This document shows positions 26,132 through 62,604 of a DNA stretch of 64,000 bases, one piece after another. The DNA is from Hyphomicrobiales bacterium. Its GTDB lineage: Bacteria > Pseudomonadota > Alphaproteobacteria > Rhizobiales > Rhizobiaceae. The stretch spans positions 1 through 64,000 of the forward strand of contig UBNQ01000006.1 in assembly GCA_900466875.1 (NCBI GenBank), written 5' to 3'. Both the position numbers and the translations under genes were made by a program. How positions within the stretch are numbered: the stretch's first letter is position 1; each line of letters begins with the position of its first letter. The notes under the pieces were generated by a model. That model had not been told where the DNA came from. It did not search any database and saw only the letters and a program-made list of their open reading frames with translations.

Positions 26132-26470
26132 ATGTCGAAAATCACCCGAATGGCTGCGGGCCTTTCCGCAGCGCTTTTGCTGCTGGCAGGTACGGCGCGC
26201 GCCGACGATCTTGCCTTCATGCTGACCAACAAGACGGATGGCGTGCTCGAGCGCTTCTACACGTCACCGGTCGGCGTCGACAACTGGGAGGAGGATGTCT
26301 TCGGCAAGGACGTTCTCGAGCCCGGCGAAAGTATCAAGATCACCATCGCGGACGGACGCCGGGTCTGCAAATACGACCTGCGATTCGAATTCACGGAGGA
26401 TTCCGGCTATGAGGACATGGAGGACAGCCAGGATCTCTGCAAAATGGGATCCTACGAAATCCACGAATGA
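26132..26470 (+). CDS. Small secreted protein of unknown function
   Basis: 112 residues with a Sec signal peptide (AAGLSAALLLLAGTARAD; cleavage after ARA). The mature part is a compact beta-rich acidic domain: DLAFMLTNKTDGVLERFY, then a D/E-rich middle and a C-terminal DLCKMGSYEI. Two Cys (in RRVCKYD and QDLCKMG) could form a disulfide. GGGAGG precedes the ATG at 26132; the longer frame to 26114 lacks support. Confidence 0.78.
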   Translation: MSKITRMAAGLSAALLLLAGTARADDLAFMLTNKTDGVLERFYTSPVGVDNWEEDVFGKDVLEPGESIKITIADGRRVCKYDLRFEFTEDSGYEDMEDSQDLCKMGSYEIHE

Positions 26471-29833: not shown

Positions 29834-31306
29834 TTACTCGGCGCTGTCTTCAGCGGCCTTCTTCTTCGGAGCAGCCTTCTTCTTCGGAGCGGCTTCTTCG
29901 CCTTCCTCAGCTTCAGCCTTTGCCTTCTTCGGCGCGGCCTTCTTCTTGGCCGGCTTGTCGTCGCCTTCGGCTTCGTCGTCAGCCATCAGCTCTTCCTTGG
30001 TGACGGTCTTGTCGGTGACCTTCACTTCCGTCAGCAGCTTGTCGATGACCTTCTCTTCGAAGATCGGAGCGCGCAGCGAGTTGGAAGCGCCAGGGGTGTT
30101 GCGGAAGAAATCGAGGATTTCCTTCTGCTGGCCCGGGAACTGCTGAAGCTGTGCGTAAAGCGCGCGCTGCAGTTCTTCTTCGGTCACTTCGACGCCGGCC
30201 TTTTCGCCGATTTCGGAGAGGACGAGGCCCAGACGAACGCGACGCTCGGCAAGCTTGCGGTATTCCGCGCGAGCTTCTTCCTCGGTCGTGTCTTCGTCTT
30301 CGAAGGTCTTGCCGGACTGGGCGAGATCGGTGTTGATCTGGCGCCAGATGTTGTCGAACTCGGCGTCAACGAGACCCTGCGGGGTGTCGAACTGGTACAT
30401 TTCGTCGAGCTGGTCGAGGATTTGACGCTTGACCTTCTGACGGGTCAGGTTGCCGTACTGGCTCTCGATCTGGCCACGAACGATTTCCTTCAAGCGGTCG
30501 ACGGATTCGATGCCGAGCTTGGAAGCCAGTTCGTCGTTGATTTCAACTTCGCCCGGAGCAGCAACGTCCTTGACGGTGATGTCGAAGGTAGCTTCCTTGC
30601 CTGCAAGGTTTGCAGCCGGATACTGTTCCGGGAAGGTAACCGTGATGACCTTTTCATCGCCGGCCTTGACGCCGACCAGCTGGTCTTCGAAGCCCGGGAT
30701 GAACTGGTTGGAACCGAGAACCAGTTCGGCATCTTCGGCAGCGCCGCCATCGAAGGCAACGCCGTCGACCTTTCCGAGATAGTTCATGGTGACGCGGTCG
30801 CCATTGGCGGCCTTGCCCTTCTTGGTCTCATAGGTGCGAGCGCTTTCGGCGATCTTGACGATCTGCTCGTTGACTTCCTCGTCGGCGATCTCGACGACTT
30901 CACGGATCACCGTGATCTTGTCGGTCGACTTCAGCTCGATCGGCGGAATGACTTCGTAGGAGAGCGTGAACTCAAGATCGGCCTGTGCGGACAGGATCTT
31001 TTCAGCTTCGTCCTGATCTTCGGTCATCGAGATCGACGGCTGGGTCGCCGACTTCTCGCCGCGTTCGGAGAGAATCGTGCCCGGACGGTCACGGATGATC
31101 TCGTTGACGAGATCGGCCATGATCGACTTGCCGTAGGTCTTCTTAAGATGCGCGAGCGGCACCTTGCCCGGACGGAAGCCGTTGATGCGGACCTTATCCT
31201 TCGCGTCGGCGAGGCGCACGTTCAGCTGTGCTTCCATCTCCTGCTTCGGGATGACAACTTTGATTTCGCGCTTCAGCCCTTCAGCGAGCGTTTCGGTAAC
31301 CTGCAT
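29834..31306 (-). CDS. tig: Trigger factor (ribosome-associated chaperone)
   Basis: A nascent-chain chaperone and peptidyl-prolyl isomerase. The 490 residues show the N-terminal ribosome-binding domain with the signature [17 protein letters not shown] (about 45-61), a central FKBP-like domain (about 155-240, with [14 protein letters not shown]) and the C-terminal cage domain. The last 60 residues are a Lys/Ala/Glu-rich repeat tail ([19 protein letters not shown]) common in rhizobial Tig. The start [15 protein letters not shown] follows a GAAGG site; upstream frame to 31372 is unsupported. Confidence 0.97.
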
Positions 31307-31465
31307 TTTCAAACCTTCATATCGTGGCGGCGGTGCCCGACTATCCGGCATCTCCAGCCGTTCAACAGTCAATACATCGCCGGAACTTCAAAGAGACCAG
31401 CCGCGGCATTAAAGGCGCCGGTCGTTCGCCTATTCTTTGGCTCAAGACCACACCCTAGCGGTGCT

Positions 31466-31550
<85 letters not shown>

Positions 31551-31880
31551 GCCCCAAACCGCGTCGAAATACCTCGTCGCCGGAGGCCTTCCAGAGCGCG
31601 CGTCTCTATATCATCCGTTTTCCTGCACGCAAAGGAAAAATGACAGTGACCAAAGAAGACTGCCCGCCGGCCATTCGCGACGCAAGTTCCGGTTCGGACA
31701 GACCTTGAGAATGCCGTCCCTGCGCGGGTTCGAGCACACCGATAGCCATGCAATTCAAGCATGCCATCCATTCGACGTTTGCAGTGCACAATTTCCCTGT
31801 CTTTCTGTAGGTTCGAGTGAACGAACGAAGCGGACGTCTTTCTTATAAACGACAGCTTCATAGGCGGATCTTCCGCAAGA
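31551..31880. other. Intergenic region upstream of sRNA, no gene seen
   Basis: About 330 bases between tRNA-Leu and the anti-SD small RNA. Short frames on both strands lack ribosome sites and codon bias. A TATAAA at 31844 could be a -10 box for the sRNA, but no good -35 is visible. A small hairpin GCGGA/TCCGC (31864-31876) lies near the sRNA start. Confidence 0.45.
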
Positions 31881-32008
31881 CATTCGGGCCACGCACTCCT
31901 CCTCCCAAGCGTGATCCCGTTCAGACCGGCGATACTCCTCCTCCCATTCGCCGGTCACCCATATGACGCCCACCGGATCTCCTCCCCCGGTGGGCGTCGT
32001 TCGTTTCG
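31881..32008 (+). ncRNA. Anti-Shine-Dalgarno small RNA (cuckoo / alpha-r14 NfeR1-like)
   Basis: Three consecutive hairpins each display an anti-SD motif in the loop. Hairpin 1 (31885-31919) has stems CGGG/CCCG and CACGC/GCGTG with CCTCCTCCC at 31898-31906. Hairpin 2 (31924-31956) has a perfect stem GACCGGCG/CGCCGGTC with CCTCCTCCC at 31937-31945. Hairpin 3 (31965-31998) has a perfect 12-base stem GACGCCCACCGG and its complement with CTCCTCCC at 31979-31986, followed by GTTCGTTT, and would act as terminator. This is the layout known for the alphaproteobacterial CcsR/cuckoo and rhizobial NfeR1 RNAs, which repress translation through C-rich loops. The 5' end is approximate. A DUF1127 gene follows 170 bases downstream on the same strand. 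Confidence 0.85.
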
Positions 32009-32178
32009 GCAGGCACTTCAATTCCCATCCACCTCAGCCAGGCATGCCTCATACCGAAATGCACCAGACGCATAGGTGGCATACGTAACGAGCGCTGTTT
32101 TTTGTGCAGAATAGAATTTAAAACGATTAGCAGATGAAGAGGGCGGAGATGACGCCCACAGGGCAAAGGACCCCCACC

Positions 32179-32325
32179 ATGAGCATCGCAAAGAAATTCA
32201 ATGACTGGCGCAAGTACCGCGAAACCATTTCCGAGCTCGGCCGCATGACCGACCGCGAACTTGGCGACCTCGGAATCGGCCGCGCCGACATCCGCCGCGT
32301 GGCTCGGACTGCAGTCGGCTTCTGA
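32179..32325 (+). CDS. DUF1127 family small protein
   Basis: 48 residues: MSIAKKFNDWRKYRETISEL followed by the conserved core MTDRELGDLGIGRADIRRVA. This is the canonical short alphaproteobacterial DUF1127 form; relatives bind RNA and affect sRNA maturation or phosphate metabolism. The start was moved from the longer frame because MSIAKKF is the family start and lies after an AAAGGA site. It is the first of two DUF1127 genes downstream of the anti-SD sRNA and may share its transcript. Confidence 0.92.
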   Translation: MSIAKKFNDWRKYRETISELGRMTDRELGDLGIGRADIRRVARTAVGF

Positions 32326-32378: not shown

Positions 32379-32581
32379 CGTTTGTGCACTTCTTTTGTCC
32401 GCGATGCCGAGGCATACGCTCATTTTTCGCGCGTCGCCCATAAAAGCGACAATTCACCGCACAAACGCATGGCAGTTGCACATTATTTGCACTGCACATT
32501 GTTATTGTTCGGGCGTATAAGAAGCACATCGCCGGAGCCAATAGTGAGACATCCGGACAAAGACGATTTGAGGAAACGACC

Positions 32582-32725
32582 ATGAACCCGATCCGCATCG
32601 CAAAGAACTGGATCAGCTACCGCCGCACGATGAACGAGCTTGGCAACCTGTCGAACCAGGCCCTCTCCGACATTGGCCTGACCCGCTACGACATCCGTAA
32701 CGTCGCTTCTCGCTCTTTCCGTTAA
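32582..32725 (+). CDS. DUF1127 family small protein (second copy)
   Basis: 47 residues: MNPIRIAKNWISYRRTMNEL then GNLSNQALSDIGLTRYDIRN, ending in a basic tail. It has a GAGGAAACGACC leader. The promoter region upstream contains a repeated TGCACATT (32475-32505) that may be a regulator site. It diverges from the first copy at most positions outside the core, so this is not a recent tandem duplication. Too short for most gene callers. Confidence 0.9.
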   Translation: MNPIRIAKNWISYRRTMNELGNLSNQALSDIGLTRYDIRNVASRSFR

Positions 32726-32819: not shown

Positions 32820-32908
32820 GATTCTGGCTTACCTCAGGGCCAAATTGAATTCGAAACAGCCGCCTTTTTGATTCCTGTCGGCAACGCGTCGTGATAATGA
32901 CGCGCCCC

Positions 32909-34318
32909 ATGACAGAGACATCCTACTCCCCCATTCACGTGATCGGCGGCGGCCTGGCAGGTTCCGAGGCGGCCTGGCAGATCGCACAGGCCGGCATTCC
33001 GGTCATCCTGCACGAGATGCGCGGCATACGCGGGACCGATGCACATAAAACAGACGGCCTTGCCGAACTGGTGTGTTCCAACTCCTTCCGCTCCGACGAC
33101 GCAACGGCAAATGCCGTCGGCGTCATCCATGCCGAAATGCGGCTTGCCAATTCGCTGATCATGGCATCGGCCGACAAACACCAGGTTCCGGCCGGCGGCG
33201 CGCTCGCCGTGGACCGGGACGGGTTTTCAGATGCGGTGACGGCTTCGATCTCGAACCATCCGCTGATCACCGTCGTGCGCGAGGAAGTGCAGGGGCTGCC
33301 GCCGAAGGAATGGGATCTGGCAGTTGTCGCCACTGGCCCTCTCACGTCGCCGTCGCTTGCGTCCTCCATCCAGTCCGAGACCGGTGAAGACCAGCTTGCC
33401 TTCTTCGATGCGATCGCCCCGATCGTGCATCGCGATTCGATCGACATGGATACCTGCTGGTACCAGTCTCGCTACGACAAGGTCGGCCCCGGCGGCACGG
33501 GCAAAGACTATATCAACTGCCCGCTCGACAAGGATCAGTACGACGCCTTTGTTGATGCACTGATCGCCGGCGATACGGTCGGTTTCAAGGAATGGGAAGG
33601 AACACCTTATTTCGACGGCTGCCTGCCGATCGAGGTGATGGCGGAGCGCGGTCGCGAAACGCTGCGCCACGGCCCCATGAAGCCGATGGGCCTCACAAAT
33701 TCTCACAATCCGACCGTCAAGGCCTATGCCGTCGTCCAGCTTCGCCAGGACAATGCACTCGGCACGCTCTACAACATGGTCGGTTTCCAGACGAAGCTGA
33801 AATACGGCGCGCAGGCGGAAATTTTCCGGATGATTCCGGGCCTGCAGAATGCCGAATTCGCCCGGCTCGGCGGCCTGCACCGCAACACCTACATCCAATC
33901 GCCGATCCTACTCGACCGTTCTCTGACGCTGAAGAGCCGGCCGGGCCTGCGTTTTGCCGGCCAGATCACCGGTTGCGAAGGTTATGTGGAAAGTGCTGCG
34001 ATAGGCCTGCTCGCCGGGCGATTCGCGGCTGCCGAGCGCAAGGGAGAGCCGCTCACGCCACCGCCCGTCACCACGGCCTTCGGCTCGCTTCTCGGCCACA
34101 TTACCGGCGGCCACCTCATTCACGACGAGGAGCCCGGAAAACGGTCGTTCCAGCCGATGAACATCAATTTCGGCCTGTTTCCCGAGCTTGAACCCGGCTC
34201 GATCGTCAAGCCGGAAGGCGTCAAGCGCTTCCGCGGCAAGGACAAGACGATCATGAAGCGGCAGCTGTTGTCGGCGCGGGCCTTGAAGGATTGCGCTAGT
34301 TGGCTCGGTCTGGCGTAG
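32909..34318 (+). CDS. trmFO: tRNA uridine-54 C5-methyltransferase, folate/FAD-dependent
   Basis: Makes ribothymidine at tRNA position 54 with methylene-tetrahydrofolate and FAD. About 469 residues. The FAD motif [13 protein letters not shown] is at the N-terminus, followed by CSNSFRSDD with the catalytic Cys, the [11 protein letters not shown] region and [20 protein letters not shown] at the C-terminus. The start [15 protein letters not shown] is preferred; a GTG at 32891 and an ATG at 32897 are alternatives with equally weak sites. It overlaps the convergent membrane-protein gene by 23 bases. Confidence 0.95.
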
Positions 34319-62441: not shown

Positions 62442-62604
62442 ATCCTGCCCCTCGCATCCTGTCTGTCGACCGTATTACTGGCGCAGGCCAATCGTTTCAA
62501 GACGGCGCGTGGCGGGTCGGTAAAAAACCTGCCTATCCGCCTCCTCCCCTTAATAGGGTAAAGAAGGGATTACGATACGGAGCGGATACCCGCCCGGTCC
62601 GATA

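Follow-up and report, generated by a model that had tools for sequence, protein, structure and literature searches.

An ar14-type RNA with three anti-Shine-Dalgarno loops precedes two DUF1127 genes in a Rhizobiaceae genome and is probably co-regulated with them

Small RNAs with anti-Shine-Dalgarno (aSD) loops and DUF1127 proteins recur together in alphaproteobacteria, and the locus analyzed here bears on why they do so: is the RNA tied to its DUF1127 neighbors by a common transcript or by common regulation? An initial annotation of the window (the whole stretch of DNA that was analyzed, 64,000 nucleotides) had assumed CcsR/CcaF1-like co-transcription and a DUF1127 protein that matures or stabilizes the RNA. 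Our analysis suggests that the link between the RNA and the DUF1127 genes at this locus is co-regulation rather than one transcript. The features of the locus are the following.

29834-31372, minus strand: tig, beyond the tRNA-Leu gene (Pfam trigger-factor domains)
31466-31550, minus strand: tRNA-Leu, the upstream flank
31749-31762, plus strand: TGCA-N6-GCAT box upstream of the RNA, in the form of the S. meliloti nfeR1 LsrB site
31759-31788, plus strand: P1, bipartite element GCAT-N16-TTGCAGTGCA upstream of the RNA
31879-32002, plus strand: ar14 (NfeR1-type) sRNA with three aSD hairpins (Rfam match, fold, covariation)
31885-31919, plus strand: hairpin H1 of the ar14 RNA
31898-31906, plus strand: aSD loop 1, CCTCCTCCC (motif count)
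31924-31956, plus strand: hairpin H2 of the ar14 RNA
31937-31945, plus strand: aSD loop 2, CCTCCTCCC (motif count)
31963-32000, plus strand: hairpin H3 of the ar14 RNA
31979-31986, plus strand: aSD loop 3, CTCCTCCC, inside the terminator-like hairpin
32059-32078, plus strand: P2, ATGC-N7-GCATAGGTG box between the RNA and DUF1127 #1
about 32117-32122, plus strand: TTTAAA of the P2 block
32179-32325, plus strand: DUF1127 protein #1, 48 aa (Pfam PF06568, 53.5 bits, cut-off 23.3)
32467-32496, plus strand: P3, bipartite element GCAT-N16-TTGCACTGCA upstream of DUF1127 #2
32582-32725, plus strand: DUF1127 protein #2, 47 aa (Pfam PF06568, 50.5 bits, above the cut-off)
32891-34318, plus strand: GIDA-family gene, the downstream flank (Pfam GIDA)

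The GIDA-family gene is presumably trmFO, and we refer to it by this name. The distance from the end of the RNA to the start of DUF1127 #1 is 176 nt, close to the 170 bases noted initially, and the second DUF1127 gene that had been noticed further downstream is likewise a PF06568 match.

The Rfam model ar14 (RF02344) matches the RNA with 100.7 bits (E-value 1.6e-18, gathering cut-off 58.8) over model positions 1-123 of 123, which confirms the proposed membership in the alpha-r14/cuckoo group; apart from this match, two tRNAs are the only Rfam matches above the cut-off in the window. The CcsR1 model (RF02791) scores 31.1 bits at the same place, below its cut-off of 65.3, and the covariance-model search thus supported the initial annotation for ar14 and not for CcsR1. 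As in ar14, there are three hairpins, each with an aSD loop, on variable stems, the third loop being CUCCUCCC. All three plus-strand hairpins reported initially were located with their loops; the predicted fold of 31879-32006 has an energy of -57.8 kcal/mol (z = -7.3), and none of 200 shuffles was equally stable. The last hairpin indeed has a perfect stem of 12 pairs (31965-31976 with 31987-31998); H3 is not among the hits of a simple terminator scan of the window, in which loops of 3-8 were allowed. The motif CCTCCTCCC occurs four times in the 64-kb window, compared with 0.57 expected, and this count was reached by none of 100 shuffles. Its two occurrences outside the RNA (26286-26294, minus strand, and 62540-62548, plus strand) coincide with no Rfam match above the cut-off.

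Forty genomes, including the window's own and 23 same-genus relatives, were searched for ar14, which was found in 32 of them at E ≤0.001 and in 25 above the cut-off. Loci in which an ar14 copy is followed by two DUF1127 genes on the same strand were assigned to class A. This order is kept in all 23 same-genus relatives, that is, in 24 of 24 genomes with the window genome, so that the adjacency of the RNA and a DUF1127 gene seen in the single sequence recurs in every same-genus genome examined; one copy (G021, 54.7 bits) falls just below the ar14 cut-off. The three C-rich loops are kept in all 24 class-A copies, with some letters changed (e.g., in G009, G013 and G021). In the alignment of these copies, 23 of which are distinct (alignment A2), standard pairs constitute 98.0% of the pair cells and eight of the 24 pairs change on both sides; neither value was reached in any of 500 shuffles, and sliding the pair partners cuts the pairing to 32-48%. 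The number of further pair types in the class-A alignment was not unusual (98 of 500 shuffles). An extra hairpin just 5' of H1, visible in many relatives, was considered and is not claimed, since its stability lies within the range of the controls (mean z of -0.90 compared with -1.24, -0.58 and +0.16, single-letter shuffles).

A second arrangement, class B, in which the DUF1127 gene comes first and is followed by an RNA with four aSD motifs, was found at at least 16 loci, which are spread over 14 of the 23 same-genus relatives. At 16 class-B loci, the DUF1127 gene has its own terminator-like hairpin and the RNA is preceded by a promoter-like block (both identified by eye). In the class-B RNAs (L064-L079) the fourth aSD motif precedes the three modelled by ar14. 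The window's own genome (5.6 Mb) contains six ar14 matches, four of them above the cut-off, and five DUF1127 matches at E ≤0.01, of which four are above the cut-off. A DUF1127 match adjoins just one of the six ar14 matches, the window copy, even when the two ar14 matches below the cut-off are counted. The copy on contig C57 (L001) has, by eye, a class-B third hairpin and a fourth aSD motif, and this contig has no DUF1127 match. A class-B-like DUF1127 gene lies on a different contig, C26 (L080), and the class-B pair of this genome seems to have come apart.

The class-A alignment features three conserved promoter-like blocks; we initially compared them visually and counted the patterns afterwards. 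In P1, TGCA-N6-GCAT is exact in 12 of 24 genomes and T-N-GCA-N-TGCACA is present in 20; across the relatives the P1 letters lie approximately 60-165 nt upstream of the RNA. The window's TGCA-N6-GCAT begins 130 nt before 31879, about 57 nt further upstream than in nfeR1, where the LsrB box is described at -72 to -60 from the start (PMC10746234), and hence a longer 5' part or processing of the RNA would be expected. P2 has the form TGC-N6/7-GCAT(A/G)GGTG in all 24 genomes, and the ATG of DUF1127 #1 follows at a distance of 119-139 nt; the pattern ATGC-N6/8-GCATRGGTG occurs at four places in the own genome, and the three besides P2 look like coding sequence by eye.

P1 and P3 have in common a 30-nt bipartite element, GCAT-N16-TYGCASTGCA. 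In a slightly looser form (A or G as the first base, any base for Y, a length of 28-32 nt allowed) it was found at P1 in 14 and at P3 in 22 of 24 genomes; all these matches are 30 nt long, the search being lazy, with the shortest spacing reported for each start. At P2 the element was found in none of the 24 genomes, and DUF1127 #1 therefore has just a related-looking box. The pattern GCAT-N14/18-TYGCASTGCA has five matches in the own genome, two of them at the locus, whereas the reversed control has none. The element shared by the RNA and DUF1127 #2 is new here and provides, at the level of sequence patterns, the strongest indication of joint control of the RNA and a DUF1127 gene.

The element could perhaps be read by LsrB/VtlR. 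LsrB is reported to bind the nfeR1 promoter via TGCA-N6-GCAT, and changes of this site abolish the binding (PMC10746234); VtlR, the LsrB orthologue in Brucella and Agrobacterium, is described as an activator of DUF1127 genes and AbcR RNAs (PMC12595884, PMC7486931, PMC11975290). The locus resembles this regulon, where a single LysR regulator controls both sRNA and DUF1127 genes in Brucella and Agrobacterium (PMC12595884, PMC7486931), in that the window has similar GCAT/TGCA boxes, but the window blocks match the published VtlR 15-mer, the consensus of which is that of Brucella, at 11 of 15 positions at most. None of the matches in the window is significant: P1 and P2 have 11 of 15 positions each (20 and 16 of 300 shuffles as good, respectively) and P3 has nine (264 of 300). 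Elsewhere in the own genome, the 15-mer matches at 13 positions at the copy L003 (2 of 300 shuffles as good), at 11 positions at L002 and L001 (25 and 15 of 300, respectively) and at ten positions at the class-B-like DUF1127 promoter on L080 (108 of 300). At the 16 class-B RNA promoters, 11-14 of 15 positions match at nearly the same position, these scores having no shuffle background.

We then have to consider loci where the RNA is absent. A scan for DUF1127 #1 yielded 521 loci, and the best 80 of them, some from the genomes of the 40-genome set, provide all counts in this and the next paragraph. Synteny was defined as the presence either of tig and tRNA-Leu or of trmFO and a second DUF1127 gene. 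It holds at 62 of the 80; the RNA is found upstream at 41 of these 62 and is absent at 21 (class-A model, E <1e-9), including all 13 Agrobacterium-labelled loci. Rfam at E ≤0.1 agrees: of 26 loci scanned, 24 belong to the 62 (the 21 RNA-less loci and L106, L119 and L152), and ar14 was found only in the latter three, below the cut-off. The P2 box was recognized by pattern at 54 of the 62 loci: at 19 of the 21 without the RNA (all except L109 and L112) and at 35 of the 41 with the RNA (six being without the box). When 17 of the 21 RNA-less loci were aligned, GCAT(A/G)GGTG was present in all 17, the RNA was gone and P1 was not conserved across them. The initial annotation had named, as a result that would refute it, the absence of the three loops from close relatives with conserved flanking genes; this result is observed at these 21 of the 62 syntenic loci and in none of the 24 same-genus genomes. 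As the RNA-less loci, in Agrobacterium and elsewhere, keep the DUF1127 genes and the P2 box, they support the reading of the RNA and the DUF1127 genes as separate units. In five RNA-less Agrobacterium intervals (L120, L135, L137, L139 and L142), ATGCRGCT followed by TGACATTATATATAG lies between tRNA-Leu and the DUF1127 gene; it may start a transcript.

Conversely, the RNA is present in three tandem copies in L144 and L163 and in two copies in L150, L159 and L161, one of the L161 copies being a short form with two loops; GCAT/TGCA-type letters are seen by eye between the copies in L144, L159 and L161. All these tandem copies (L144, 1539-2283; L163, 1541-2285; L150 and L159, 1836-2278; L161, 1895-2280) precede the DUF1127 pair at the trmFO site, and the organisms are Rhizobium subbaraonis, R. 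rhizolycopersici, Rhizobium sp. GN54, Mycoplana azooxidifex and isolate AFS031141. Among the 80 named loci, the one closest to the window is that of Rhizobium smilacinae PTYR-5, with 100% identity of protein #1 and 88.5% identity of DNA over 4,961 aligned positions, and the source of the window is thus probably a Rhizobium/Neorhizobium-like member of the Rhizobiaceae. At one and the same site, relatives may carry the RNA once, in two or three copies or not at all; this natural experiment makes the co-regulation question testable.

Taken together, we consider it likely that the window encodes a trans-acting aSD RNA of the ar14/NfeR1 type that is transcribed independently of its DUF1127 neighbors and co-regulated with them. 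Experiments on NfeR1 are reported to show silencing of ntrB and of some transporter mRNAs through its aSD loops (PMC10746234, PMC7143759), and, judging from the family, the three C-rich loops would pair with the Shine-Dalgarno regions of several mRNAs and block their translation; the predicted targets in S. meliloti are mostly transporter mRNAs. There is no sign in the sequences that the neighboring DUF1127 genes are the main targets: in the 25 bases before the ATG, at most four contiguous bases are complementary to the loops for DUF1127 #1 in all 24 genomes, while for DUF1127 #2 there are five such bases in 20 genomes and four in the other four, these match lengths having no computed background. 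The RNA would start at its own upstream promoter and end at hairpin 3, and the two short DUF1127 genes would each form a transcription unit with a promoter-like block of its own; they are probably not made from the transcript of the RNA and need not act on it. Co-regulation would keep the RNA and the DUF1127 genes together, as both P1 and P3 contain the bipartite element, the likeliest reader of which would be a LysR-type regulator of the LsrB/VtlR kind. Against this reading, the bipartite pattern misses P1 in ten of the 24 genomes (T-N-GCA-N-TGCACA being present in 20) and P2 in all of them, the P2 box is not recognized at eight of the 62 syntenic loci, and P1, P2 and P3 match the VtlR 15-mer poorly; the weak U-tract after H3 and the detection of just one of six S. 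meliloti copies, both described below, also count against it.

Co-transcription of the RNA with DUF1127 #1 in an operon of the CcsR/CcaF1 kind, with the protein helping RNase E to mature or stabilize the RNA, is unlikely. The order conserved in 24 of 24 genomes would fit such an operon, and CcaF1 is reported to bind RNA and to help mature the CcsR RNAs in R. sphaeroides (PMC10253847). Moreover, the U-tract after H3 is interrupted in the window (five T in nine letters; 15 of the 24 class-A copies have more T), and this weak U-tract makes read-through into DUF1127 #1 possible. However, the P2 block stands between the RNA and DUF1127 #1 in all 24 genomes, the gene order is opposite to that in R. 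sphaeroides, where the DUF1127 gene comes first (PMC10253847), and 21 of the 62 syntenic loci among the best 80 of 521 keep the DUF1127 gene without the RNA. Co-transcription as initially annotated is thus disfavored, and so is the maturing or stabilizing role of the neighboring protein, given that five of the six ar14 matches in the own genome have no DUF1127 gene beside them and that the short DUF1127 proteins of A. tumefaciens are described as acting through PhoR, a protein contact (PMC12501420). According to the same source, the RNA binder CcaF1 can replace these proteins in the PhoR assay.

The notion that H3 is a conditional attenuator, and the RNA both an sRNA and a leader into DUF1127 #1, draws on S. 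meliloti duf1127-1, which is attenuated in a 279-nt leader and for which an sRNA holding a uORF has been seen (PMC12218461), and on the interrupted U-tracts of several class-A copies. We regard it as very unlikely: the duf1127-1 case depends on translation of a uORF that has a ribosome site of its own, and P2 is a likely separate start for DUF1127 #1 in all 24 genomes. An 11-base repeat, ATGACGCCCAC, seen by eye in H3 and in the leader of DUF1127 #1, was considered as an antiterminator and rejected, since the leader version is limited to the window's nearest relatives in the alignment. Finally, the window copy might be a silent or redundant ar14 duplicate, without function and at a conserved site by chance. 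There are several ar14 copies per genome, Agrobacterium-labelled loci among the best 80 of 521 lack the RNA, and just one of six S. meliloti copies was detected by Northern blotting (PMC7143759), so the window copy might be silent as well; yet the loops are kept while the stems covary, and the RNA is kept in 24 of 24 same-genus genomes, which makes this explanation highly improbable.

The closest known system is ar14/NfeR1 (RF02344; SmelC397; the SmelA075/SmelA099 models; the cuckoo RNA family), which has in common with the locus the three hairpins with CCUCCUCCC loops, the third being terminator-like, several copies per genome and an upstream TGCA-N6-GCAT box; the position of this box differs, as described above (PMC10746234). 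Publications from 2011 on describe RNAs that have three or four CCUCCUCCC hairpins and how they are likely to act (PMC3927594). At the CIN1 locus of Rhodobacter sphaeroides (CcsR1-4 and CcaF1), aSD-loop RNAs adjoin a small DUF1127 gene, as they do here in 24 of 24 genomes, but there the RNAs follow the DUF1127 gene and an RpoHI/HII promoter yields one transcript of them all (PMC10253847), whereas in the window the RNA comes first, there are separate promoter-like blocks, and the CcsR1 covariance model stays below its cut-off. Since DUF1127 genes beside CcsR-like RNAs were already published as CIN1 (cited in PMC10253847), both the kind of RNA and the association are known. S. meliloti duf1127-1 resembles the locus in the sRNA-sized leader upstream of a DUF1127 gene and differs in acting via the translated uORF (PMC12218461); the words cuckoo, NfeR1 and CcsR are absent from the main text of that paper. 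Among the papers listed in literature searches, judged by titles and beginnings of abstracts, none concerned the shared P1/P3 element or the RNA-first order at trmFO, a negative of little weight. The RNA kind being known, it is the arrangement that is noteworthy.

The history of the locus was addressed using eight stretches from other families of the order. In three of them (G030, G033 and G038), a DUF1127 gene is directly followed by aSD hairpins, and trmFO lies in the same stretch of 5.5-6.5 kb; in G038, the hairpins are approximately 750 bases from trmFO, and in G030, trmFO is preceded by four DUF1127 units, the first of which lacks clear aSD letters. The G035 stretch has C-rich hairpins after a DUF1127 gene and does not contain trmFO, and no DUF1127 match was found in the other four stretches. 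As the former three loci resemble CcaF1-CcsR, trmFO may be the old home of the pair, which was then split in Rhizobiaceae; the few genomes compared suggest this at the sequence level. It is quite possible, though we propose it tentatively, that the locus is a split remnant of an ancient DUF1127 messenger with an aSD RNA as its 3' end: the RNA and the proteins would have become separate genes in Rhizobiaceae, kept in step by the shared bipartite promoter element, and the RNA would then have multiplied (two or three copies at five loci) or been lost (Agrobacterium).

Two further observations were made. In L086 (G028:C13), several aSD hairpins in which GCATGGCTG letters are repeated follow one another near 75198-75339, and this stretch contains no DUF1127 match. 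In G030, which is an AT-rich 2.3-Mb genome from another family, the four DUF1127 units are in tandem at 2146-3840 of L081 (G030:C130), each preceded by a GCAT/TGCA-type box identified by eye, and after three of the units there are an aSD hairpin and a terminator-like hairpin rich in C; trmFO lies downstream of the whole array.
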